DNA of 44,167 nucleotides from Planobispora longispora (GTDB taxonomy: Bacteria > Actinomycetota > Actinomycetes > Streptosporangiales > Streptosporangiaceae). Of the stretch, positions 3,571 through 15,657 are shown piece after piece (position 1 is the stretch's first letter; every line of letters begins with the position of its first letter). The stretch spans positions 1 through 44,167 of the forward strand of contig NZ_BOOH01000030.1 in the NCBI RefSeq assembly GCF_016863135.1, read 5' to 3'. A model generated the notes under the pieces. The model did not search any database. It was not told the origin of the DNA and saw nothing but the letters and a program-made list of their open reading frames with translations. The position numbers and the translations under genes were made by a program.

Positions 3571-3924
3571 TTAGGGCTCGAACTGGAACTTCCTGCCCTT
3601 GTTCAGGTAGTACTTGTGGGAGAAGCCCAGCCGGCCGGCGTTGCCGACCACCGACCGCCAGTTCTTCGTGGCGCGCCTGCACGCCCCGACGGTCGTCTGA
3701 CCGGGATAGAGAACGTCGATGACCTTGTACCTCCGGCCGTTGGCGTTGAGGGCCGGGCCCCTGCGCACGTTGAGGTAGCTGCCGGACGAGACGTTGCGCA
3801 CCTTGTAGAAGCAGGCGGTCTCGGCGCTGGCCGGAGCCGCGGCGGTGGCGCTGAGGGCGATCAGGCCACCGCCACCGGTGACGATCGCCGCCGCGATAGC
3901 GCTTGCGAGGCGCTGGAACTTCAT
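3571..3924 (-). CDS. Small secreted SH3-like protein, copy 1
   Basis: This 117-residue exported protein has a Sec signal peptide: MKFQRL, a hydrophobic core rich in Ala/Ile/Gly and a likely AxA cut near PASAET. The mature part resembles a bacterial SH3 fold (CFYKVRNVSSGSYLNVRRGP) and ends with WRSVVGNAGRLGFSHKYYLN. Two cysteines, one at the start of the fold and one after the fourth strand (VGACRR), are kept in all three copies and could form a disulfide. The ATG at 3924 is chosen over the GTG at 3933 because AAGGAAG would leave no spacing to the GTG. Copies 2 and 3 follow upstream on the same strand. Binding to the cell wall is inference. Confidence 0.75.
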   Translation of the reverse strand: MKFQRLASAIAAAIVTGGGGLIALSATAAAPASAETACFYKVRNVSSGSYLNVRRGPALNANGRRYKVIDVLYPGQTTVGACRRATKNWRSVVGNAGRLGFSHKYYLNKGRKFQFEP

Positions 3925-4128
3925 TTCAGTCACTTCCTTGCAGTCGATTCGGACTAGCTCATCGCCTAATCGGACATATAGCTACATAAACGCCATATGC
4001 GATTCTTTGTAGGCGGAAGTTGTCGGACGCGTCTTTCCCCAGGGCTCATGTGTTCGCTGATGGATGCGACATGCTGGGCCCACCGTGTGAGCGTCGTGTC
4101 ACCGGCCGTCCGAGGGCCGCTCGTGCTC

Positions 4129-4452
4129 TCAGGACAGTCGTGAGAGCTTCTTCAGGTAACGCTTGTGGGAGTAGCCGTTGACGCCCTTCCTGCCGACCAC
4201 GGCGCGGAAGTTCTTCGTCTGCAGAGCGCACTTGCCGAACGTGATCTGGCTGGGCAGGAGAGAGTCGACGACGGTGCCGTACGCCCGCGGGATGTCGCGC
4301 ACGGCGAGAACGCTGCCGGCGGGGACGTTGCGCACCCGGTAGGCGCAGGTCGCCGCCTCCGCTGCGGTCGCGGTGGCGGCGCTGAGGGCGATCGAGCCTC
4401 CGCCCGCGACGGCCGCTGCGACCATGACGCCCGCGAGTCGTTTAAAGATCAT
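4129..4452 (-). CDS. Small secreted SH3-like protein, copy 2
   Basis: This 107-residue paralogue of the protein at 3571-3924 has a signal peptide (MIFKRLAGVMVAAAVAGGGS, AxA-type cut near AAEA). Its mature SH3-like region begins CAYRVRNVPAGSVLAVRDIP and ends FRAVVGRKGVNGYSHKRYLK. Both conserved cysteines are present. A GAAGGAG ribosome site and the bases just before the ATG resemble those of copy 1, so the leader seems to have been duplicated with the gene. The flanking DNA (3950-4030, 4490-4590) is visibly AT-richer than the genes. Function is unknown; the basic mature domain fits a wall or polyanion binder. Confidence 0.72.
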   Translation of the reverse strand: MIFKRLAGVMVAAAVAGGGSIALSAATATAAEAATCAYRVRNVPAGSVLAVRDIPRAYGTVVDSLLPSQITFGKCALQTKNFRAVVGRKGVNGYSHKRYLKKLSRLS

Positions 4453-4590
4453 TAGTCACTCCTTCTCTCTCGATGTGGTGACTAGGGCCTTGATGTCCGG
4501 ATTCGTGATGCAAAAACGAGCACGCACCGTCATATATCAAATACATAGAGTTAACAGACGTGCCCTTTTCTGCATTTCGGACAAAAAGGA

Positions 4591-4624
4591 CATGCCGTGA
4601 AGTCCGGGCGGACTTCACGGCATG
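4591..4624 (-). terminator. Strong intrinsic terminator of SH3-like copy 3
   Basis: A perfect 15-bp stem (4591-4605 with 4610-4624) with loop GGGC is followed, in the minus-strand reading direction, by TCCTTTTTGT. Stem plus U-tract makes a classic Rho-independent terminator. It separates copy 3 from copy 2, so these two are not simply one transcript. Confidence 0.88.
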
Positions 4625-4653
4625 AACGGGCCGAGATGGGGCAGCGCGCGGCG

Positions 4654-4998
4654 CTAAAGACCGAACTCCTCGGTCGTGCCGAGCTTCTTCAGGTTCTTCT
4701 GTCTGGTGTAGCCCTTGGTGAGGTCGCGAGTGCCCACGACTCTGTGCCAGTTCTTGTCCTGGCCGTACGCGCGGCAGCTGCCCAGGGTCCGGTCCCCCCT
4801 GCGGATCCGGTCGATCACCTTCCCCTTCTTGGCCGGCTTGGACTTCACCGGCGCCCGGTGCTTGACCAGGAACACGCAGCCCAGCCCGGAGTTCCCGGAT
4901 GCCTCGGCCGGACTCGCCAGGACGGCACCCGCCACGACCGTGCCGCCGGCGGCGACGGCCGCCGTGGCGAGCGCGGCGGCGAAGCGCTTGAGTCGCAT
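4654..4998 (-). CDS. Small secreted SH3-like protein, copy 3
   Basis: This 114-residue exported protein is the most divergent of the three. The signal peptide is MRLKRFAAALATAAVAAGGT with a cut near ASPAEAS. The mature part keeps both cysteines (GLGCVFLVKHRAP and TLGSCRAYGQDKNW) and the closing motif WHRVVGTRDLTKGYTRQKNL. The first half is very lysine rich (KSKPAKKGKVID). An AGGAG ribosome site precedes the ATG by 7 bases. It has its own intrinsic terminator at 4591-4624. It is related to copies 1 and 2 by architecture and cysteine spacing; the exact fold is inferred from copy 1. Confidence 0.7.
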   Translation of the reverse strand: MRLKRFAAALATAAVAAGGTVVAGAVLASPAEASGNSGLGCVFLVKHRAPVKSKPAKKGKVIDRIRRGDRTLGSCRAYGQDKNWHRVVGTRDLTKGYTRQKNLKKLGTTEEFGL

Positions 4999-5156: not shown

Positions 5157-6068
5157 GTGGGGGACAACCCGATTCCGTGCTGGCCGGGAGAGTCGGTCGA
5201 GCTGGCAGGCCGTCGCGTCCACGTGCGCTCGACGCCGCGCGGCCCGGCGGAGACGGCGGTCTACATCCACGGGCTCGCGGGCTCGGCCACCAACTGGACC
5301 GACCTGATGGGCGAGCTGTCGGACGTGGCGACCGGGTACGCGGTCGACCTGCCCGGCGCGGGGCACTCGCCGGAGCCGCCCGACGGCGACTACTCCATCG
5401 ACGCCCACGCCCGGACCGTGGCGGCGCTCGTGGAGCAGGCCGCCGACCGGCCCGTCCACCTGTTCGGCAACTCCCTGGGCGGCGCGGTCGCGGTGCGGCT
5501 CGCCGCCACCCGGCCCGAGCTGGTCCGCTCGCTCACCCTGGTCTCCCCGGCCCTGCCCGACCTGACGCCGAGGTACGGCCCGGCGCGGGTGGCCCTGTCG
5601 GCGGTGCCCGGACTCGGAGAGTGGGCCTTCGACCGGCTGCGCCTGCTGCCCGCCGAGCGCAGGCTCAACGCCACGATGAGCCTGTGCTACGCCGACGTCG
5701 CCCGGGTCCACCCGGAGCGGCTGCGGGAGGCGGTGGAGGAACTGCGCCGCCGGGACGCCCTGCCGTACGCCGGGACGGCGCTGCTCAACTCGGCGCGCGG
5801 GCTCGTCGCCGAGTACTTCCGGCGCGGCGAGGACAGCCTCTGGCGGCAGGCGGCCCGGATCCAGGCGCCCACGCTGGTGATCCACGGCCGCCGCGACCGG
5901 CTCGTCAACCCCCGCATGGCGGCCCGGGCGGGACGCACGTTCCCGCGCGTGAGGCTGGTGCTGCTGCCCGACGCCGGGCACGTGGCGCAGATGGAGCTGC
6001 CCAAGCGGGTGGCCCGCGAGGCGAGGCGTCTGATATCTGAGACGGCGCCGGTCACGATTGGGGAATGA
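5157..6068 (+). CDS. Alpha/beta hydrolase
   Basis: This 303-residue cytoplasmic alpha/beta-fold hydrolase has a complete triad: Ser106 in the elbow FGNSLGGAV, Asp247 in HGRRDRLV and His275 in DAGHVAQME. The oxyanion motif HGLAG is near residue 39 and a helical cap lies around residues 135-215. An AGGAGG box 4 bases upstream fixes the GTG start; the overlapping ATG at 5155 is out of frame. Members of this group include esterases, haloperoxidase-like and ring-cleavage product hydrolases; the substrate cannot be assigned. The gene stands alone upstream of moeZ, separated from it by a promoter-like region. Confidence 0.88.
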   Translation: MGDNPIPCWPGESVELAGRRVHVRSTPRGPAETAVYIHGLAGSATNWTDLMGELSDVATGYAVDLPGAGHSPEPPDGDYSIDAHARTVAALVEQAADRPVHLFGNSLGGAVAVRLAATRPELVRSLTLVSPALPDLTPRYGPARVALSAVPGLGEWAFDRLRLLPAERRLNATMSLCYADVARVHPERLREAVEELRRRDALPYAGTALLNSARGLVAEYFRRGEDSLWRQAARIQAPTLVIHGRRDRLVNPRMAARAGRTFPRVRLVLLPDAGHVAQMELPKRVAREARRLISETAPVTIGE

Positions 6069-6141: not shown

Positions 6142-7323
6142 GTGTCGTTGCCACCGCTGGTAGAGCCGGCAGCCGAGCTGACCGTCGACGAGGTGCGCCG
6201 TTACTCGCGTCACCTGATCATTCCTGACGTCGGCATGGCCGGTCAGAAGCGCCTGAAGAACGCCAAGGTGCTCTGTGTGGGCGCCGGCGGTCTGGGCTCC
6301 CCCGCCCTGCTGTACCTCGCGGCCGCGGGCGTGGGCACCCTGGGTGTGATCGACTTCGACGTCGTCGACGAGTCCAACCTGCAGCGCCAGGTCATCCACG
6401 GCCAGTCCGACGTCGGCCGGCCCAAGGCCGAGAGCGCCGCGGCCTCGGTCCGGGAGATCAACCCGCTGATCGACGTGGTGGCCCACAACGAGATCCTGAC
6501 GACCGAGAACGTCATGGAGATCTTCGCCCGGTACGACCTGATCGTCGACGGCACCGACAACTTCGCCACCCGCTACATGGTGAACGACGCGGCGGTCCTG
6601 CTCGGCAAGCCGTACGTCTGGGGCTCGATCTACCGCTTCGACGGCCAGGCCAGCGTCTTCTGGGCCGAGCACGGCCCCTGCTACCGCTGCCTCTACCCGG
6701 AGCCCCCGCCCCCCGGCATGGTCCCCTCCTGCGCCGAGGGCGGCGTGCTCGGCGTGCTGTGCGCCTCGATCGGCTCGATCCAGGTCAACGAGGCCATCAA
6801 GCTGCTCACCGGCATCGGCGAGCCGCTGGTCGGCCGTCTGATGATCTATGACGCCCTGGAGATGAACTACCGCTCGGTCAAGGTCCGCAAGGACCCCGAG
6901 TGCGTGCTCTGCGGCAAGAACCCGACGGTCACCGAGCTGCTGGAGGACTACGAGGCGTTCTGCGGCGCCGTCTCCGCCGAGGCGGCCGAGGCCGTGTCCG
7001 GCTCCACGATCACCGCGACCGAGCTCAAGTCCTGGCAGGACGCGGGCGAGAACATCTACGTGGTCGACGTCCGCGAGCCGAACGAGTACGAGATCGTCTC
7101 CATCCCCGGCGCCGTGCTCATACCCAAGGGCGAGTTCCTCAACGGCTCGGCGCTGGAGAAGCTCCCGCAGGACAAGAAGATCGTGCTGCACTGCAAGTCC
7201 GGCGTCCGGTCCGCCGAGTGCCTGGCGATCGTCAAGAACGCCGGCTTCTCCGACGCGGTCCACGTGGGCGGCGGCGTGCTGAGCTGGATCAAGACGATCG
7301 ACCCCAGCCTGCCGACCTACTGA
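6142..7323 (+). CDS. moeZ: Adenylyltransferase/sulfurtransferase MoeZ
   Basis: This 393-residue two-domain enzyme activates the C-terminal glycine of sulfur-carrier proteins with ATP and then loads sulfur, serving molybdopterin, cysteine and other sulfur pathways. The E1-like domain (about 15-265) has the nucleotide loop VGAGGLGSP (46-54), the DFDVVDESNLQRQ segment and a zinc site of two CxxC pairs (Cys180/183, Cys254/257). The rhodanese domain (about 290-390) has the active loop CKSGVRS with Cys351. Length and order match actinobacterial MoeZ (Rv3206c in M. tuberculosis). The GTG start has GGGAG 7 bases upstream. The carrier-protein genes are not in this window. Confidence 0.95.
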   Translation: MSLPPLVEPAAELTVDEVRRYSRHLIIPDVGMAGQKRLKNAKVLCVGAGGLGSPALLYLAAAGVGTLGVIDFDVVDESNLQRQVIHGQSDVGRPKAESAAASVREINPLIDVVAHNEILTTENVMEIFARYDLIVDGTDNFATRYMVNDAAVLLGKPYVWGSIYRFDGQASVFWAEHGPCYRCLYPEPPPPGMVPSCAEGGVLGVLCASIGSIQVNEAIKLLTGIGEPLVGRLMIYDALEMNYRSVKVRKDPECVLCGKNPTVTELLEDYEAFCGAVSAEAAEAVSGSTITATELKSWQDAGENIYVVDVREPNEYEIVSIPGAVLIPKGEFLNGSALEKLPQDKKIVLHCKSGVRSAECLAIVKNAGFSDAVHVGGGVLSWIKTIDPSLPTY

Positions 7324-7495: not shown

Positions 7496-8227
7496 GTGAA
7501 CGACGTGCCAGCCCGCCGCCGGGTGTGGCCGGGGCTGGTCGCGGCCTCCGTGCTCACCCTGGCCTGCGCGGGCGTGGCCGGGGTCGCCGCGGGGGTCGCG
7601 GGGGCCGAGCTGACCCGCGGCCCCAGTACGGCGGAGCTGCGCCAGGCGGCCGCCGAGGAGGTGGCCCGCCGCTGGCGGACGTGGCCGGCGGGGCGCGTCT
7701 TCCCCGAGACAGTGCGCTACGCCGCCGAGCAGGGCGGCATGGAGCGGGCCCGGCGGGTGGGCATCTCCCCGCAGACGGCCTGCGACCGGGCCGTGGACGC
7801 CCGGCTGAGGGAGCCGATGCGACGGGCGGGCTGCCGGGCGATCCTGCGCGCCACCTATCTCGACGCGCTCCAGGGCGTGGTCGTCACCGTCGGCGTCGCG
7901 GCGTTCCCGGACGAGCCGGGCAGCGTGAAGGCGATGTCCGCGCTGCCCCGGGGCGGGCGTCCCGCGCCGGGGCTGAAGGCGCTGTCCTTCCCCGGCACGG
8001 TCGCCGACCGCTTCACCGCGGCGGGCCGGCAGGCGAGCCTGGCGCGCAAGGGCGGGCCGTACCTGGTGATGGTGACCGTCGGCCAGGTCGACGGCCGCCC
8101 GGCGAAGGCCACGGGGGAGCAGCGGCCCACCATGTTCGCCTTCGCCGGTGACATCGCCGACCGGATCCTCGACTCCCTGACGACCCCCGCCCCGCCCGAC
8201 TGCGCCTCGCGGGAGTGGCGATGCTGA
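7496..8227 (+). CDS. Single-pass membrane protein, partner of mycosin-like protease 1
   Basis: This 243-residue protein has an N-terminal membrane segment (about residues 13-37) and an extracellular domain with four cysteines: Cys96 and Cys113, then Cys236 and Cys243. It shares with the protein at 9551-10660 the motifs VARRWRTWP and VFP, GCR-x-(I/L)LRATY, VVTVGVA, and FPGT followed by GPY. The spacing of the first cysteine pair is identical in both. No known family is recognised. Its stop lies inside the start of the protease gene (ATGCTGA), so the two are translationally coupled. Inference: an anchor, chaperone or inhibitor of that protease. Confidence 0.75.
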   Translation: MNDVPARRRVWPGLVAASVLTLACAGVAGVAAGVAGAELTRGPSTAELRQAAAEEVARRWRTWPAGRVFPETVRYAAEQGGMERARRVGISPQTACDRAVDARLREPMRRAGCRAILRATYLDALQGVVVTVGVAAFPDEPGSVKAMSALPRGGRPAPGLKALSFPGTVADRFTAAGRQASLARKGGPYLVMVTVGQVDGRPAKATGEQRPTMFAFAGDIADRILDSLTTPAPPDCASREWRC

Positions 8228-9471
8228 GGCGGGCCGGAGCCGTCGCGGGCGGGATGGGGAGCGCGGCCCGGGCCGTGGCCAGGGTGATGTTCCCGGTGCT
8301 GCTGGGCGCGGCCGTGCTGGGCTCCGCCCCGGCGGTCCCGGCCGCCCACGGCGACGAGGTGCGCGACGGCCAGCAGGCGGTGCTGCGGACCCTGGGGCTG
8401 CCCCAGGCGTGGCAGGTCTCCCGGGGTGAGGGCGTGACCGTCGCGGTGCTGGACTCGGGGGTGGATCCGCGCCACCGCGACCTGGCCGGGTCGGTGATCG
8501 AGGGCAGGGACTTCACCGTGGGCGCCAACCCGCCGGACGTGGCGCCCCTGCGCCTGCACGGCACCTACATGGCCTCGCTCATCGCCGGGCACGGGCACGG
8601 CGCGGGCGGCCGGGACGGGGTGATCGGGGTCGCGCCCCGCGCGCGGGTGTTGTCGGTGCGGGTGATCCTGGAGGACGAGGAGGCCGGGTTCCGGAGGTTC
8701 AACACCGCCAAGCGGTTCGAGAACGTGGTGGCCAGGGGCATCAGGTACGCCGTGGACCACGGCGCCGACGTGATCAACATGTCGATCTCCAAGGAGCTGG
8801 CGACCCGGGAGGAGCGGGCGGCGATCCGCTACGCCGTCTCCAAGGGGGTGGTGCTCGTCGCGGCGGCGGGCAACGACGGGGAGGGCAGGCGGCGCGGGCA
8901 CGCCCCGTACTCCTACCCGGCCGCCTTCCCCGGGGTGGTCTCGGTCGCGGCGACGGACCGGGGGCTGCGCCGGGCGTCGTTCTCCAACGCCAACCCCTCG
9001 GTCCTGGTGGCCGCGCCCGGGGTGGACATCCTGGGCGCGGGTCCCGGCGACGAGTACTGGGTCGGTCGCGGCACGTCGCAGGCGACCGCGCTGGTCTCCG
9101 GGGTGGCCGCCCTGATAAAAGCGAAATACCCGAAAATGGCGCCCGTTCTGGTCGCGCAGGCGCTCACCGCCGGGGCGACGCGCCGGCCCGCGGGCGGCTA
9201 CGACACCGGCACGGGCTTCGGCGTGGTCAACGCCGGCCGGGCGCTGGCCGAGGCCGCCAAGATCGCCCGTCACACCCACACCGCCGACGGCCACGGCGTC
9301 CACGACCCCGCCCGCCCGCTGGGTCAGGCGGGCGAGCCGGTACGGGTGATCCACCGGGACCGCGAAAGGATCACCTTCTACGGGGGGGTGGCTCTGGCGG
9401 CCGGACTCGGGGCCCTGGCCTCCCTCGCGGCGGTCGTGCTGGTCACGGTCCGGGCCCGGACGGCGAGGTAG
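8221..9471 (+). CDS. Mycosin-like membrane-anchored subtilase 1
   Basis: This 416-residue S8 serine protease has a signal peptide (to about PAAHGDE, residue 45), a catalytic domain and a C-terminal membrane anchor (about 388-410) followed by RARTAR. The triad is Asp78 (AVLDSGVD), His113 (LRLHGTYMASL) and Ser286 (GRGTSQATA); Asn218 in AAAGNDG fits the oxyanion hole. Signal, subtilase domain and tail anchor are the layout of mycosins (MycP) of type VII secretion. The ATG at 8221 is preferred because the second pair uses the same overlap with its partner gene; a GTG at 8215 is possible. No EccB, EccC, EccD or EsxA-like gene is in the window. Confidence 0.88.
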   Translation: MLRRAGAVAGGMGSAARAVARVMFPVLLGAAVLGSAPAVPAAHGDEVRDGQQAVLRTLGLPQAWQVSRGEGVTVAVLDSGVDPRHRDLAGSVIEGRDFTVGANPPDVAPLRLHGTYMASLIAGHGHGAGGRDGVIGVAPRARVLSVRVILEDEEAGFRRFNTAKRFENVVARGIRYAVDHGADVINMSISKELATREERAAIRYAVSKGVVLVAAAGNDGEGRRRGHAPYSYPAAFPGVVSVAATDRGLRRASFSNANPSVLVAAPGVDILGAGPGDEYWVGRGTSQATALVSGVAALIKAKYPKMAPVLVAQALTAGATRRPAGGYDTGTGFGVVNAGRALAEAAKIARHTHTADGHGVHDPARPLGQAGEPVRVIHRDRERITFYGGVALAAGLGALASLAAVVLVTVRARTAR

Positions 9472-9538
9472 CGGCCGGGACAGCGGAAAGCGACATGGCG
9501 GACACGGTCCGGCGCTGCGGCGGCGGGGCCCGGCGACG

Positions 9539-9544
9539 TAGCAT
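9539..9544 (+). promoter_or_regulatory. -10 element for a leaderless transcript
   Basis: TAGCAT ends 6 bases before the ATG at 9551 and there is no ribosome site. The second protease pair therefore seems to have its own promoter. Confidence 0.45.
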
Positions 9545-9550
9545 CGAAGT

Positions 9551-10660
9551 ATGTCGCAGCCCGGGAGGTCCCAGGAGCCGAAACGGCGTCTGGAGTCCTC
9601 CTCGCCGCACGCTCGCGGCGGCTGGCCGCCCGCCGGATCCCGTGCCCTGCGGGGCGGCAGGAGGCGCGGCGCGGCGGATCCGCGCCTCGCGCCGGGACAG
9701 CCGGGGCAACCGAGGCAGTCAGAGCAGCCGGGCCGTCCGGGGCGGGACGGGCCTCAGGAGCCGCGAGGGGGAAGAGCGGGCCCCGGGGCGCCGAGCGGCT
9801 CCGGGGCGAGCGGTCCGGGGGCGCCGGGCGGTGGAGCCGGCCGCCCGCCCGCGGCCAGGCGGCGGGTCCGTCCCTGGCCCGCGGCGGCGCGCGACCGGCT
9901 GGCCGCCGAGCGCGCCGAGGCGGCCGCGCTCGAACAGGGGGTCCGGTATCGCACGATCTTCCTCCTGCTGATGGGCGTCATCCTGGCCGTCGCCACGACC
10001 GCCGTGCTCTCCGGCGCGGTCGGGCTGCTGCGTGAGACCGCCTCCCGCCCGCTGACCGCCGAGGAGCAGAACCTCTACGTCCAGCAGGACGTCGCCAGGC
10101 GCTGGCGCACCTGGCCCACGACGCTGGTCTTCCCCCAGGAGCTGGAGTACGTCGGCCTCGCCCGGACCCAGCAGTACGCCCAGCGGATCGGCATCGCCCC
10201 CGAGGCGCCCTGCCGGGCCGGCACGGACGCCGTGGTCGGCTCGATCCTCGCCGAGAACGGCTGCCGCACCCTGCTGCGGGCCACCTACGTGGACCAGACG
10301 TCCACCTTCGTGGTCACCGTGGGCGTCGCGGTCATGGAGGACGTGGAGAAGCGGCGGACCGCGGTCGGGCAGCTCGGGGCGGACAACCGGGTGGGAGTGC
10401 GGCCGGTCGCCTTCCCCGGGACCGCCAGCGAGTCGTTCGGCGCGGCCCAGCGCCAGCGCAACGCCTGGATCGGGGTGGGACCGTACATCGTCTTCTCCAC
10501 CGCCGGATACGCCGACGGCCGCACCCGCGCGGCGGTCTCGCCGGAGGAGATCACGCACAGCGAGCTGTGGCCGACGGCCCAGTCGGTGGCCGGGCGCATC
10601 GCCCACGCCCTGGGCGCCGAGCCCGCCGTGCCGCGCTGCACCCAGGGGAACGTGTGCTGA
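9551..10660 (+). CDS. Membrane protein with long disordered N-tail, partner of protease 2
   Basis: This 369-residue protein is a paralogue of the one at 7496-8227. It adds about 130 cytoplasmic residues rich in Pro, Gly, Arg and Ser, then one membrane segment (about 136-160) and an extracellular domain. Cysteines are Cys221 and Cys238, with the same spacing as in copy 1, and Cys363 and Cys369. Shared motifs are VARRWRTWP, GCRTLLRATYVD and VVTVGVA. Its stop overlaps the GTG of protease 2 (GTGCTGA). The N-tail could contact a cytoplasmic partner. No family with known function is recognised. Confidence 0.75.
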   Translation: MSQPGRSQEPKRRLESSSPHARGGWPPAGSRALRGGRRRGAADPRLAPGQPGQPRQSEQPGRPGRDGPQEPRGGRAGPGAPSGSGASGPGAPGGGAGRPPAARRRVRPWPAAARDRLAAERAEAAALEQGVRYRTIFLLLMGVILAVATTAVLSGAVGLLRETASRPLTAEEQNLYVQQDVARRWRTWPTTLVFPQELEYVGLARTQQYAQRIGIAPEAPCRAGTDAVVGSILAENGCRTLLRATYVDQTSTFVVTVGVAVMEDVEKRRTAVGQLGADNRVGVRPVAFPGTASESFGAAQRQRNAWIGVGPYIVFSTAGYADGRTRAAVSPEEITHSELWPTAQSVAGRIAHALGAEPAVPRCTQGNVC

Positions 10661-11871
10661 GACGGCGAGGACGGAGACGGGCCGGGGCGGCGGTCGCGCT
10701 CGCCGCGGTGATCTCGGCGCTGTGCGCGGCCGTGGCCGCCCCGGCCGGAGCCGCCGACATCCGCGAGGACCAGCGGTGGGTGCTGGAGGCGCTCAACGCG
10801 CCGGAGGCGTGGAAGGTCACCAAGGGCGCCGGGGTCACCGTCGCCCTGGTGGACGACGGGGTGGACGACAGGGTCGCCGAGCTGCGCGGCAAGGTCGTCT
10901 CCGGGCCGAGCATGGGATCGATCGCCGAGGGGGGACGGGAGAGCGCCACCGGCGAGCACGGCACCGCGATGGCCTCGCTCATCGCGGGGGCCGGGAAGGG
11001 CGACGGCGGCCTGCTCGGGATCGCGCCCGAGGCGCGGATCCTGTCGCTGCCGCTGAAGTTCACCGAGGACGAGGAGGGCGACGCGATTCCCCCGGAGAGC
11101 GACCAGCGCACGCGCAGGGACAGCCCGGTGGCCCGGGCGATCCGCTACGCCGTCGACCACGGGGCCCAGGTGATCAGCATGTCCCTGGGCGCCTACGGCC
11201 CGAACCGGGCCGAGCGCGAGGCCGTCTCCCACGCGCTCTCCAAGGGCGTGGTCCTGATCGCGGCCGCCGGCAACGGGGGCGAGAGCGAGTACGCCACCGC
11301 CAACGCCACCTCCTTCTGGAACTTCCCCGCCGGATACTCCGGGGTGATCGGGGTGGGGGCGTCCGACCGCGAGGGCAGGCCCGCCCCCTTCAGCAGCGGC
11401 AACCTGTCGGTCCTGGTCTCGGCGCCCGGGGTGGAGGTCCCGGTGGTGACCCCCGGCGGGGAGTACGACCTGTCGGACGGGACGAGCTCGGCGACCGCGC
11501 TCGTGGCGGGGGCGGCCACGCTCATCAAAGCGAAATATCCGGACATCCCACCGCATCTGGTGGCGCGGGCCCTCTCCTCCACCGCCCGGTTCGCCACCAA
11601 GGCGGGATACGACGAGCACATCGGCTTCGGCGTGGTGGACGCGGCGGCGGCGCTCGACCGGGCGGGGGAGCTGCTGTCCGCCGCGGCCCCGGTCCCGGTG
11701 GCCGAGGGCCGTCGTTTCGGCGGCGGGCCGCTGCCCGAGGGGCCGGACCGGCCCGGTCCCGACCCGTTCCGCCTGTGGCTGTACGGCACCGGCCTGATCG
11801 TGGGCGTGCTCACGTTCACCGGGACTGTGGTGGTCCTCACCCGCAAAACCGGATCCGGAAGCCGTCTTTGA
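10654..11871 (+). CDS. Mycosin-like membrane-anchored subtilase 2
   Basis: This 405-residue S8 protease is a paralogue of the one at 8221-9471. The GTG at 10654 is chosen because it overlaps the previous stop in GTGCTGA, exactly as ATGCTGA does in pair 1, and it gives a proper signal peptide (LRRRGRRRAGAAVALAAVIS). The triad is Asp67 (ALVDDGVD), His102 (EHGTAMASL) and Ser278 (DGTSSATA), with Asn207 in AAAGNGG. A Pro-rich linker (about 345-372) leads to a tail anchor (LWLYGTGLIVGVLTFTGTVV). All catalytic residues are intact, so both copies should be active. Substrates are unknown. Confidence 0.87.
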   Translation: MLRRRGRRRAGAAVALAAVISALCAAVAAPAGAADIREDQRWVLEALNAPEAWKVTKGAGVTVALVDDGVDDRVAELRGKVVSGPSMGSIAEGGRESATGEHGTAMASLIAGAGKGDGGLLGIAPEARILSLPLKFTEDEEGDAIPPESDQRTRRDSPVARAIRYAVDHGAQVISMSLGAYGPNRAEREAVSHALSKGVVLIAAAGNGGESEYATANATSFWNFPAGYSGVIGVGASDREGRPAPFSSGNLSVLVSAPGVEVPVVTPGGEYDLSDGTSSATALVAGAATLIKAKYPDIPPHLVARALSSTARFATKAGYDEHIGFGVVDAAAALDRAGELLSAAAPVPVAEGRRFGGGPLPEGPDRPGPDPFRLWLYGTGLIVGVLTFTGTVVVLTRKTGSGSRL

Positions 11872-11970: not shown

Positions 11971-12339
11971 ATGGGGTACGAGTTGCGGATAGAGCGCCCG
12001 GCGCCTCTCTCGTTCGCGGAGCTGGCGAACGTGCTGGGGCGGGCGGGGTTCGAGTTCCGCGGTTCGCAGGAAGAGGGCGAGGTCCTCGCGCGCTACGGAG
12101 ACGCGGTCCACGCGATCGCCGTCTGGAACGGCGCGCTGACCGGCGCGCCCGGATCCGACTGGCAGGTGGCCCAGCTCGCGCGGGTCTCCGGCCTGCTGGG
12201 GGCACGTCTGGTCGGTGAGGACGGCGAGTCCTACGCGATCCGCGACGGCGTCGTCGAGCAGCACAGCGGTTCGGCGGCCTACGAGTTCGGCAAACTGGAC
12301 GAGATCCTCGCGGCCGGCCCGGCCGCCTGGACCGCGTAG
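11971..12339 (+). CDS. Conserved-looking small protein of unknown function
   Basis: This 122-residue soluble protein has no signal peptide, membrane segment or cysteine. It begins MGYELRIERPAPLSFAELAN, and the pattern of alternating strands and two helices suggests a small alpha/beta fold. A TAAGGT -10 (11957-11962) ends 8 bases before the ATG with no ribosome site, so the mRNA is probably leaderless. It reads in the same direction as the following ATL gene, 16 bases away. No family is recognised. Confidence 0.65.
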   Translation: MGYELRIERPAPLSFAELANVLGRAGFEFRGSQEEGEVLARYGDAVHAIAVWNGALTGAPGSDWQVAQLARVSGLLGARLVGEDGESYAIRDGVVEQHSGSAAYEFGKLDEILAAGPAAWTA

Positions 12340-12708: not shown

Positions 12709-12756
12709 GGCGTGGGACGGAGACGCAGTCTTGTCCTGAAAGGCGGTGCCTTCCCC

Positions 12757-15657
12757 ATGGCCACCGGCGCCTCACCCGTGCGTACGAGCGGCGATCGCCT
12801 CGCCGAGCGGCTGCGGGCCGTACAGGATCTCTGCGACCGGGGGGAGCCACTCGATTCGGTCATGGCCTCGGTGCTCGCGGAGGGCCTGACTCCGGCGGAG
12901 CGGAAGCGGTTCGACGCCGACGTGCTCGCCGGACCGCTCGGCTCCCGGCTCGACATCGCGGTCAAGCGCGGGGCGGCTCGCCGCCGCGAGTTCGTCACCG
13001 CCGTCAAACCCTATCTCGCGAGCGTGGACCCCCAGGTCAAGCTCGACCTGCCGGTGGCCCGGCGGCTGGCCTTCCACCTGATCGACCGGCGCGGCGTGGA
13101 CGAGCTGGCCGAGGGCGACGCCCTGAGCAAGATCGTCACCGCCGCCGCGGAGCCGTCCCGCCGGGTCAGGAAGAGCATGCGCTGGTATGCCGACCTGCCG
13201 CTCCGCGACGAGCTCCCCGAGTCGCTCTACCGGCTGCGCGCCGCCGACCTCATCCCGGTGACGCAGGTCGAGGACGTCTCCTGGTCCGGCGACCGGCTCC
13301 GGATCACCGGGCACGCCTACCTGGCGGGCCTGTCGGTCCGCAGCCGCCGCTTCAACCGGGCCACCGTCGTGCTGCGCGGCCCGCGCTGGCTGCCCCCGGT
13401 GCGCCTGCGCACCCGCCGGATCCACCACCCGGAGGCCACCCACGGCGCCCGCGAGGCGGGCTGCAACTACGACTGGTCCGGATTCACCGCCGAGCTCTCC
13501 CCGTGGGCGCTGCGCTGGCGCGCCGCGGTGCGGGCGGTCGCCCGCGGCGGCAAGCGGCTGCTGCGCCGCCGGGGCACCGTACGGGACACCACCACCTGGC
13601 GCGCGGAGATCGTGATCTGGAGCCGGGGCGCCCGCGCGGTCGGCCTGCTCCGCGGCCCGATCAGCGGCAGGACCGAGCGTCCGTCGGGCCTGGAGGTCCG
13701 TCCCCGCTGGTGGATCCGGCCCGTCTGGACCTCCGACCGCGCCCTGCAGGTCGTGCTGCAGCCCACCCGGGCCGAGCTGACCGACGTGCGGCTGGACGGC
13801 GAGCGGCTGGAGCTGACGGTCTTCCTGCCGGACAAGAAGGTCGGCAGGGGACACGCGCGGCTCGACGGCCACCGCATCGCGGCCGACTTCACCCCGGTCG
13901 AGGGCGGCACGCGGGTCGTGGTCCCGCTGGCCGTTCCGTCGCTGCTGTCCGAGCGCGACGGCGGCAGGCTCTGGATCGAGCCCAAGGGCGACCCCGCGGC
14001 CCCGGTGATGCTGGGCGCGGCGAAGGAGAGCCGCTCCGTCATCGGCGATCGGGAGATCACGGTGCTGGGCGACCGGCGGGACCGGGTGATCATCGCCGCG
14101 CACCGGGTCCGCCCGGTCATCTCGTCGGTGACCTGGGGCGAGGACGGCTCGCTCACCCTCGGGGGCTCCTACCCCGGCTCGGGACGGGCCCAGCTGACGA
14201 TCCGCCACCGCAGCGGGCTGATGTACGCCGCGGAGCTGGAGCGCGACGGCTCCCGCTTCACGACGCGGATCACGCCCGCCGCGATGCCGCGCTTCGCCGA
14301 GACCGTCCCGCTGAGCAGCGGGAACTGGAGCATGGCGGTCCGTGAGGAGTCCGGTGAGATCATCCCGATGCGGATGGACCACGCGGCCCTGGACGCGCTC
14401 GACGAGAACCCGAGGGTCGTCGGCGGCCGTGAATACCGGCTGATCTCCACCCGGTTCGACGTGCCGGTGCTGGCCGCCGCCGAGGTCCGGCCCGACGACG
14501 AGAAGGGCCCCGGCGGGCTGCACGCCCTGCAGCGCACCTTCTATCCGGCCGAGCGGGGCCGCGAGCTGAACGACGCGACCGTCTACGTCGCCTACGACGG
14601 GCGGCAGTACGAGGGCAACGTCCGCGCGGTCTACGAGGAGCGGGTGCGGCGCGGCGACGACCGCGAGCACATCTGGATCGTCAAGGACGGCGCCTTCACG
14701 CCGCCGGGTTCGCGGGAGCTCGGGTTCGGCCCGGACATCCGGCCGACCGTGGTCCGCGCGGGCAGCCGGGAGCACTACGCGGCGCTCGCCCGCTCGCGGT
14801 ACGTGGTGACCAACGCCTTCCTGCCGCCCTGGTTCCGGGCGCGCGAGGACCAGACGGTGGTGCAGACCTGGAACGGCAGCCCGCTCAAGCGCATGGGCAA
14901 CGACCTGCCGCACATGTCCCGCGACCCGAAGCCGCCGGCCTGGCACCGGCAGGCCGTCGAGGTGCGCGGCTGGGACCTGCTGGTCGCGCAGAGCCCGTGG
15001 GCCGTCCCGGTCCTGCGCAAGGCGTTCGGCTACCAGGGCGAGGTCCTGGAGAGCGGCTACCCGCGCAACGACGTGCTGTCGTCCCCGGACCGGGAGGAGC
15101 TCGCGACGCGGGTGCGGGCCCGGCTCGGCGTCCCGGAGGGCGCCAAGGTGGTGCTCTACGCGCCGACGTTCCGCGACTACGACCGCAAGAACGCCTCGGT
15201 CAAGCTGAACCTGGCCGAGGCGCGGCGGGTGCTCGGTCCCGGCTACACGTTCCTGGTCAGGGGCCACTCGATGCAGGCGACGCCGAACGTCCCCGCGGGG
15301 CTCGGGATCGACGTCACGACCTATCCGGATATAACGGATCTGCTGCTGGTCGCGGACGTGCTGATCACGGACTACTCGTCGGTCATGTTCGACTTCGCCG
15401 CGACCGGCCGGCCGATGGTGTTCTTCACCCACGACCTGCAGCGCTACTCGGCCAAGCGCGGTCTCTACCTCGACCTGGCCGCGGAGGCCCCCGGCCCGCT
15501 GCTGTCCGGCAGCGCCGAGGTGATCGAGGCGCTCCGGACGATCGACGAGGTGGCCGCCGCCCACGCCGACCGCTACGCGCGCTTCAGGCACACCTACGCC
15601 CCCCGCGACGACGGCAAGGCCACCGCCAGACTGGTGGACCACGTCTTCGCCTCCTGA
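12757..15657 (+). CDS. CDP-glycerol glycerophosphotransferase family protein (TagF/TagB-like)
   Basis: This 966-residue protein would polymerise or prime wall teichoic acid-type polyol phosphate chains from CDP-linked donors at the inner membrane face. The C-terminal third is the glycerophosphotransferase domain: TVVQTWNGSPLKRMGNDL, ESGYPRNDVL, VVLYAPTFRDY and VLITDYSSVMFDFAATGRPM, ending near residue 960. The first 600 residues hold strand-rich repeated modules of the kind found in long actinomycete TagF proteins; no glycosyltransferase-2 domain is evident. No membrane segment is visible, so attachment would be peripheral. The start at 12757 is a choice over the GTG at 12712. Partner tag/tar genes are not in the window. 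Confidence 0.85.
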   Translation: MATGASPVRTSGDRLAERLRAVQDLCDRGEPLDSVMASVLAEGLTPAERKRFDADVLAGPLGSRLDIAVKRGAARRREFVTAVKPYLASVDPQVKLDLPVARRLAFHLIDRRGVDELAEGDALSKIVTAAAEPSRRVRKSMRWYADLPLRDELPESLYRLRAADLIPVTQVEDVSWSGDRLRITGHAYLAGLSVRSRRFNRATVVLRGPRWLPPVRLRTRRIHHPEATHGAREAGCNYDWSGFTAELSPWALRWRAAVRAVARGGKRLLRRRGTVRDTTTWRAEIVIWSRGARAVGLLRGPISGRTERPSGLEVRPRWWIRPVWTSDRALQVVLQPTRAELTDVRLDGERLELTVFLPDKKVGRGHARLDGHRIAADFTPVEGGTRVVVPLAVPSLLSERDGGRLWIEPKGDPAAPVMLGAAKESRSVIGDREITVLGDRRDRVIIAAHRVRPVISSVTWGEDGSLTLGGSYPGSGRAQLTIRHRSGLMYAAELERDGSRFTTRITPAAMPRFAETVPLSSGNWSMAVREESGEIIPMRMDHAALDALDENPRVVGGREYRLISTRFDVPVLAAAEVRPDDEKGPGGLHALQRTFYPAERGRELNDATVYVAYDGRQYEGNVRAVYEERVRRGDDREHIWIVKDGAFTPPGSRELGFGPDIRPTVVRAGSREHYAALARSRYVVTNAFLPPWFRAREDQTVVQTWNGSPLKRMGNDLPHMSRDPKPPAWHRQAVEVRGWDLLVAQSPWAVPVLRKAFGYQGEVLESGYPRNDVLSSPDREELATRVRARLGVPEGAKVVLYAPTFRDYDRKNASVKLNLAEARRVLGPGYTFLVRGHSMQATPNVPAGLGIDVTTYPDITDLLLVADVLITDYSSVMFDFAATGRPMVFFTHDLQRYSAKRGLYLDLAAEAPGPLLSGSAEVIEALRTIDEVAAAHADRYARFRHTYAPRDDGKATARLVDHVFAS

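Follow-up and report, generated by a model that had tools for sequence, protein, structure and literature searches.

The window analysed here is a stretch of 44,167 nucleotides from Planobispora longispora that makes up one entire contig (NZ_BOOH01000030.1) of an 8.84-Mb genome (referred to here as G000). At positions 7496 to 11871, it carries two tandem gene pairs, each consisting of a predicted membrane protein (the partner) followed by a mycosin-like S8 protease whose start codon overlaps the stop codon of the partner gene. We refer to the partners as PA and PB and to the proteases as SA and SB. The two pairs, with their ATGCTGA and GTGCTGA overlaps, had been described in an earlier reading of the sequence alone (the original prediction), and their coordinates hold. 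The features of the module are as follows.

7496-8227, + strand: PA, partner A, 243 amino acids (aa); predicted single transmembrane (TM) segment (model helix, residues 11-40), ectodomain with four Cys residues, presumed N-in/C-out orientation
7781-7834, + strand: core Cys pair of PA (C96, codon 7781-7783; C113, codon 7832-7834)
8201-8224, + strand: C-terminal Cys pair of PA (C236 and C243, the latter being the final residue)
8211-8227, + strand: GGGAG sequence resembling a ribosome-binding site in the 3' end of PA, followed by the ATGCTGA overlap (8221-8227)
8221-9471, + strand: SA, mycosin-like S8 protease, 416 aa, ATG start at 8221; signal peptide, catalytic domain (D78, H113, N218, S286), and C-terminal TM segment
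9376-9447, + strand: C-terminal TM segment of SA, approximate position from hydropathy
9551-10660, + strand: PB, partner B, 369 aa; long basic Pro/Arg-rich N-terminal tail, TM segment, ectodomain with four Cys residues
10643-10660, + strand: C-terminal QGN codons of PB (CAGGGGAAC), a purine-rich stretch resembling a ribosome-binding site, followed by the GTGCTGA overlap (10654-10660)
10654-11871, + strand: SB, mycosin-like S8 protease, 405 aa, GTG start at 10654; D67, H102, N207, and S278 intact in the window; C-terminal TM segment at approximately 11785-11838

The two copies in the window share 37% identity between the partners and 45% identity between the proteases. Both partners contain the motifs VARRWRTWP and GCR-x-LRATY and the same 17-residue Cys spacing (C96 to C113 in PA), as originally described.

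To assess conservation, we scanned GTDB species genomes with profiles and kept the best 80 of 95 loci, all of which belong to Streptosporangiaceae genera according to their titles. Three conserved flanking genes were tracked together with the two pairs; we take the first two to be an alpha/beta-hydrolase-like gene and a MoeZ-like gene.

5157-6068, + strand: ABH, alpha/beta-hydrolase-like gene, upstream neighbour, conserved synteny
6142-7323, + strand: MoeZ-like adenylyltransferase/rhodanese gene, upstream neighbour, conserved synteny
11971-12339, + strand: DS, 122-aa downstream neighbour, conserved synteny

The gene order ABH-moeZ-PA-SA-PB-SB-DS, determined by stop positions, was complete in 73 of the 80 loci. 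Of the seven incomplete loci, six were located at the edge of a contig or on a short contig, and the seventh had no detected DS. Contig edges accounted for the omission of PA at L149, of PA and SA at L165, and of the SB of L134, which runs off its contig, from the SB table. An S8 gene was next to 157 of the 158 partners in the 80 loci (i.e., SA for 78 of 78 PAs and SB for 79 of 80 PBs), the remaining protease gene being cut by a contig end. Partner and protease are inherited as a unit, and this unit is doubled in Streptosporangiaceae. Further divergent pair types without the C-terminal Cys pair (L075, L076 and L077, L213) were present as extra copies in some Streptosporangiaceae, and their proteases occupied two separate positions in the S8 tree described below.

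The S8 frame was open from the overlapping NTG codon at 156 of the 158 junctions, one of the 156 (L134) being cut by a contig end. The junction sequences (n = 158) were GTGCTGA (136), ATGCTGA (12), GTGTTGA (8), TTGCTGA (1), and GTGCTAG (1). The two exceptions were the PA/SA junctions of Sphaerimonospora (L154 and L158), where the S8 start lies 8 bp downstream and the terminal Cys of the partner is kept; the overlap motif appears to be duplicated at both junctions. Regarding ribosome-binding signals, a match of at least four bases to the Shine-Dalgarno (SD) core was found just before the start at 76 of 78 PA junctions, compared with approximately 22% of random windows. The Gly codon of the QGN motif of PB was GGG or GGA in all 73 PBs that have the motif (seven PBs lack it), compared with 29% of gene-body Gly codons, and the last 14 bases of PB were 65% purine, compared with 50%. 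These related sequences are not independent, and the junction statistics are hence read as indications. They give signs of selection for a ribosome-binding sequence within the end of the partner gene, and the conserved partner C terminus, perhaps including the terminal Cys, may in part reflect the overlap. A pure overlap effect is doubtful because the terminal Cys codon was TGT at 8 of 158 junctions, the Trp codon TGG was found at 0 of 158, and the Sphaerimonospora partners keep the Cys after the start has shifted.

Both window proteases matched the S8 family PF00082 (E values of 4.5e-45 for SA and 1.5e-41 for SB). With the mycosin model TIGR03921, they scored 268.6 (SA) and 229.7 (SB) bits, both under the cut-off of 278.75, in matches spanning nearly the entire model (positions 2 to 345 of 353) and beginning at residue 59 of SA. 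A C-terminal hydropathy peak (>1.6) was present in 77 of 77 SAs and 77 of 80 SBs; the N-terminal signal peptide was likewise predicted by hydropathy. The original prediction had suggested that the partner might anchor the protease, which is unnecessary because the proteases carry this C-terminal hydrophobic segment of their own. An AlphaFold model of SA, based on 26 sequences, had a predicted local distance difference test score (pLDDT) of 57 and was not used for fold searches.

The two proteases differ in their catalytic residues. The Asp, His, Asn, and Ser of SA were conserved in all 79 sequences, composed of 77 aligned sequences and the SAs of L154 and L158, which were kept out of the alignment because of their start 8 bp downstream and were inspected by eye. 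The catalytic residues of SB were intact in 54 of 80 loci, including the window, and 26 of 80 SBs lacked both His and Ser, with the oxyanion Asn replaced by Asp in 25 of these. In a MoeZ+SA tree that excluded SB, the intact and dead states of SB (53 and 25 rows, respectively, with the dead row L165 left unplaced) required a single change. The row closest to the window in this tree was Planobispora rosea (95% identity). The dead-SB group consisted of Acrocarpospora, Herbidospora, Planotetraspora, Sphaerimonospora, Microbispora, two Microtetraspora, and one further genus; a third Microtetraspora had an intact SB. The ratio of nonsynonymous to synonymous substitution rates (dN/dS) of SB was 0.19 to 0.47 in ten within-genus pairs of the dead group, compared with 0.11 to 0.62 in eight intact pairs, and that of PB in within-genus pairs of the dead group was 0 to 0.22. 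SB in this clade is less constrained than SA yet still under purifying selection. SB is also dispensable as an enzyme, because one clade retains it without the catalytic His and Ser.

A quick tree was also built from 61 S8 domains, namely those of 39 paired proteases, 15 proteases found in EccB regions, 1 orphan, and 6 others; fragments of <200 residues or under the score limit had been dropped. The 39 paired proteases and the orphan formed one clade (Shimodaira-Hasegawa-like approximate likelihood ratio test support, 98), 13 of the 15 ESX-region proteases were located elsewhere, and the other two formed the sister group to the pair clade (support, 93). The orphan is a mycosin-like S8 protease (273.9 bits) of the window genome, which has no EccB (G000:C39 239227-240489; L006, L051).

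The partners reached the cut-off of no Pfam or NCBIfam family, in agreement with the original prediction that they match no family. A partner AlphaFold model based on 90 sequences (pLDDT, 89.4; predicted template-modelling score, 0.79) contained a single TM helix and a juxtamembrane helix, with an ectodomain of mixed alpha/beta structure; hydropathy also gave one TM segment, with a presumed N-in orientation. The C96-C113 pair was invariant in alignments of 32 and 90 sequences and was also present in 13 partners of the Streptomyces-like set described below. Four ectodomain Cys residues were counted in 157 of the 158 partners of the 80 loci, including all 80 PBs, and the remaining one (the truncated PA of L112) also has four; Cys was the last residue in 158 of 158. 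The second pair (C236/C243) was absent from the Streptomyces-like pairs, which have two Cys residues compared with four in Streptosporangiaceae. Because of this absence, and because the codon of the terminal Cys shares bases with the start of the protease gene, the description of a four-Cys membrane protein stands for Streptosporangiaceae and fails as a family signature. Two of the four Cys residues are lineage specific, and the signature is the C96-C113 pair. The mature protease was free of Cys in 55 of the 77 SAs and in 46 of the 80 SBs, so the Cys residues of the partner most likely pair with one another.

Searches for relatives of the partner gave hints below significance. Foldseek returned no PDB match under 1e-3 for the partner model; the best matches, all nonsignificant, were CoxG (E, 0.02), mycobacterial TiME (E, 0.03; probability, 0.89), and, at rank 8, the PknH extracellular domain (structure 4esq; E, 0.22; template-modelling score, 0.25 to 0.30). 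No solved relative was found by sequence under an E value of 0.1. DUF7373 (PF24088) was hit by 6 of 20 members (best E, 1.6e-4), and only two matches to it were obtained in 41 genomes (21.3 and 21.7 bits), neither reaching its cut-off of 27 bits. PknH_C (PF14032; cut-off, 27 bits) was hit by 2 of 20 members (best E, 0.0023), and a profile comparison by hhalign gave no significant family match (E, 0.06; probability, 0.9%). Because these hints are below significance and the comparison with PknH_C was negative, we place the partner in neither family. Membership in EccB was rejected by hhalign as well (probability, 0.05%), and a viral origin or fold was rejected on the basis of one viral-contig scan, which gave no relative, and the lack of a significant viral structure match.

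We examined whether the module is connected with type VII secretion. The original prediction had noted that no ESX genes are nearby, and this extends to the whole genome: no EccB match was obtained anywhere in G000 or in its three same-genus genomes, and the best EccC matches in these four genomes reached 231.7 to 240 bits, compared with the cut-off of 509. An EccC-like FtsK/SpoIIIE protein of approximately 1700 aa, far under the EccC cut-off, is encoded at G000:C8 95419-97407. We required the absence of both EccB and EccC because the absence of EccB alone is an imperfect proxy; six genomes (G009, G021, G024, and G026 to G028) had no EccB match yet an EccC match over the cut-off. By this measure, 8 of 16 pair-bearing relatives, with the window genome among the 8, had neither EccB nor EccC over the cut-off, and the other 8 have EccB. 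Among 15 further module-bearing genomes, for which only EccB was compared, 11 had EccB and 4 did not. On shared contigs, the distance from module to EccB was approximately 89 kb (G015), 138 kb (G117), or more. Conversely, 20 EccB regions (13.6 to 18 kb each) contained no partner match; they contained 15 S8 genes, in 13 of the regions. The candidate role of the partner as an ESX component was rejected on these grounds, together with the lack of EccB and canonical EccC in G000 and its three same-genus genomes, and the module is not an ESX component.

Beyond the 80 loci, the partner profile matched in 25 of 41 relatives. The 22 loci chosen from the stronger matches contained 34 partner genes, 33 of which were followed by an S8 gene; the exception (L078) is of a solo type, 65% identical to the solo paralog of the window genome itself. 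One of the 33 (L070; G014:C85) looks fragmentary, its partner and S8 being present as short open frames only, and is apparently a decayed pair. Among 148 genomes sampled from the class, the partner matched in 22, of which 17 had pairs and 5 had solo forms only. The 17 paired genomes consisted of 6 of family f1, 10 of one Streptomyces-like genus of family f20, and 1 of family f6. In several f20 regions the neighbours resemble infC-rpmI-rplT, and the genus is probably Streptomyces; one f20 genome (G117) has two pairs. Among 20 regions from the class sample, the partner was directly upstream of S8 in 13, with ATGA or GTGA at the junction; such pairs came from the 10 Streptomyces-like genomes and the f6 genome. 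In profile comparisons, the Streptomyces-like partners joined the family at an E value of 2.4e-33 and the solo paralogs at 1.7e-22. A protease-free sister subfamily of the partner ectodomain is located near truA.

Two solo paralogs of the window genome (G000:C19 97119-98213 and 98917-100779; L049, L003) are Pro rich, have one TM segment and no protease, and are flanked by rpsI/rplM on one side and truA/rplQ on the other, with a CAP-domain protein next to them. The interval from rpsI/rplM to truA/rplQ holds ESX-4 in mycobacteria. A solo paralog is also near truA in the two Streptomyces-like regions examined (L214 and L215).

The separate, ESX-independent surface-protease module of the original prediction is supported by the position of paired partners next to S8 genes (157 of 158, 33 of 34, and 13 of 20 regions) and by the lack of partners in the 20 EccB regions. 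On balance, we lean towards a stand-alone envelope protease module, independent of ESX, in which the partners and S8 proteases would form a heteromeric complex, with SA cutting and the partner serving as the platform. The overlap would set the order of synthesis, partner first and protease second, and would likely fix their ratio at near-equal amounts by translational coupling. Both proteins are predicted to place their folded parts outside the membrane, which would put the complex on its outer face. SA would be the cutting subunit. SB would have a structural or regulatory role and could be catalytically active in some genera and a pseudoprotease in others. The partner ectodomains would act as a platform for protease assembly, analogous to the EccB chamber that MycP caps in type VII secretion systems. 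The ectodomain could also act as a sensor, although nothing supports this.

Several observations weigh against this reading. At PB, the SD core match covered only three bases in 78 of 80 loci, no better than random windows. Eighteen of 18 further loci with weaker partner matches (some overlapping) lacked S8, with truA on the same stretch in 15, and the remaining 7 of the 20 class-sample regions likewise had no S8 and were near truA, i.e., they belong to the solo subfamily. The original prediction had asked whether the partner family occurs mostly without the protease or is a known ESX component; neither was found for the paired subfamily, whereas the wider superfamily does occur without S8 in these 7 regions and 18 loci. 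The orphan of contig C39 belongs to the pair clade and has no partner gene upstream. No significant Foldseek relative was found, so that a platform or sensor role is argued from topology. In 8 of the 9 dead-group pairs that could be compared, dN/dS was higher for SB than for SA, indicating weaker constraint on SB. Four of the eight ESX-less relatives (G005, G014, G020, and G022) are only 88 to 93% complete, and EccC-like matches of approximately 350 bits, below the cut-off, were present in G005 and G014. Finally, after correction with MoeZ, distance correlations were higher for PA-SB (0.77) and SA-SB (0.76) than for PA-SA (0.68) and PB-SB (0.62). Pair-specific coevolution was therefore rejected, as there was no pair-specific excess; the joint variation of all four proteins fits one four-part complex, without being proof of it.

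A more far-reaching proposal, which we regard as tentative, is that the module is a translocon-free envelope machine, i.e., an EccB/MycP-like assembly reduced to a minimum and lacking type VII secretion. The partner ectodomains would replace EccB, and the duplicated pair would supply an active subunit and a second subunit that turned into a pseudoprotease in one clade; the assembly would have been kept across Streptosporangiaceae and, at lower copy number, among Streptomyces-like bacteria.

Alternatively, the partner could be an assembly chaperone or an inhibitor acting in trans in place of a subtilisin propeptide, folding the protease or silencing it until release. The partner gene comes first and overlaps the protease start, the ectodomain is predicted to lie outside (given the presumed orientation) like the protease domain, and in SA the match to the mycosin model begins at residue 59, a short distance past the signal peptide. 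This explanation seems unlikely to us, since PB is kept with four Cys residues and a dN/dS of 0 to 0.22 where SB has lost His and Ser, a setting in which a pure inhibitor would be needless, and since no such partner accompanies the S8 proteases at ESX loci, as judged from the 20 EccB regions. The inhibition suggested in the original prediction is accordingly disfavoured for pair B. An inhibitor alone need not stay beside a dead enzyme; the retention of PB next to a catalytically dead SB favours a stable structural complex instead.

We think it improbable that the partner is a substrate of SA in a signalling relay, in which the ectodomain would sense stress, SA would clip it, and the cytosolic N-terminal tail would be released or changed, as in site-1 proteolysis. 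The long basic tail of PB (approximately 130 aa) ahead of the TM segment, the single-TM topology, and the weak similarity between the ectodomain and the sensor domain of PknH are in keeping with such a relay. However, the tail of PA in the window has only approximately 10 residues, the tails are poorly conserved, and the tracked conserved neighbours, under the names we presume for them, include no obvious regulator or site-2 protease. It is very improbable that the module is a remnant or accessory of type VII secretion that acts on an ESX system encoded at another genomic location: the protease resembles mycosin, and EccB is present in 8 of the 16 relatives and 11 of the 15 other genomes that carry the module, but the idea is largely refuted by the ESX-less genomes (including G000 and its three same-genus relatives), by the distance of at least approximately 89 kb between module and EccB on shared contigs, and by the lack of partners in the 20 EccB regions.

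Two other features of the window lie outside the module. Three tandem genes at 3571-4998 on the - strand encode small, probably secreted proteins (107 to 120 aa) with similar N termini and Cys residues. Downstream of the module, 12712-15657 encodes a 981-aa protein whose C-terminal half presumably resembles CDP-glycerol glycerophosphotransferase.

Mycosins are parts of type VII secretion systems, in which it is difficult to tell their proteolytic role from their structural one. The module is a natural ESX-free duplicated mycosin-like system in which one copy is catalytically dead throughout a clade yet persists alongside its partner, which would make the structural role of such proteases testable in harmless actinomycetes. 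It also gives a likely context to a conserved but unannotated family of membrane proteins and suggests that a "type VII mycosin"-like gene in an actinomycete genome is no sure sign of an ESX system.

In the open-licence PMC literature, no mycosin partner was among the matches listed, which is weak evidence of absence, and no paper linking a mycosin with a pseudoprotease was found. Relative to the papers listed, and with the same weak evidence, the partner family, the coupling, the ESX independence, and the pseudoprotease clade would be new; the proteases themselves are of a known kind. Like mycosins (MycP, TIGR03921), the window proteases have an S8 domain, an N-terminal signal peptide, and a C-terminal TM segment; they differ in scoring under the TIGR03921 cut-off, lying outside an ESX cluster, overlapping a partner gene, and forming their own clade. 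A survey of Tat (twin-arginine translocation) export of tail-anchored proteins also noted mycosins as tail-anchored extracellular proteases; it concerned Tat substrates, and the passages available from it contain no mycosin partner (PMC10924467). The PknH sensor domain (PF14032) and the soluble domain of TiME (PDB 7cu8/7cu9) are extracytoplasmic, like the predicted partner ectodomain, but their Foldseek E values of 0.22 and 0.03, respectively, are not under 1e-3. According to passages on PknH, its extracellular domain has two disulphides (PMC3601408, PMC4118811).

A functional parallel to the proposed complex concerns EccB and MycP. In the passages available, a MycP5 trimer caps and stabilises the EccB5 chamber, with mycosin as a structural subunit (PMC8131196), and, as proposed here, a single-TM protein with a periplasmic domain is combined with a structural mycosin (PMC8131196, PMC6986878). 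The partner ectodomain is smaller (approximately 200 aa, compared with approximately 400 aa in EccB) and has no profile similarity to EccB, and the module has no EccC or EccD. The clostridial Csp proteins, as described in parts of three reports (PMC6636752, PMC12880746, PMC6199464), are paralogous subtilases of which dead forms are retained (active CspB; pseudoproteases CspA and CspC). The corresponding trait, a retained paralog without catalytic residues, is seen in one SB clade and not in the window. The Csp pseudoproteases are described as soluble spore proteins, whereas the dead SB found here arose from an intact second copy in one clade, beside a membrane partner.

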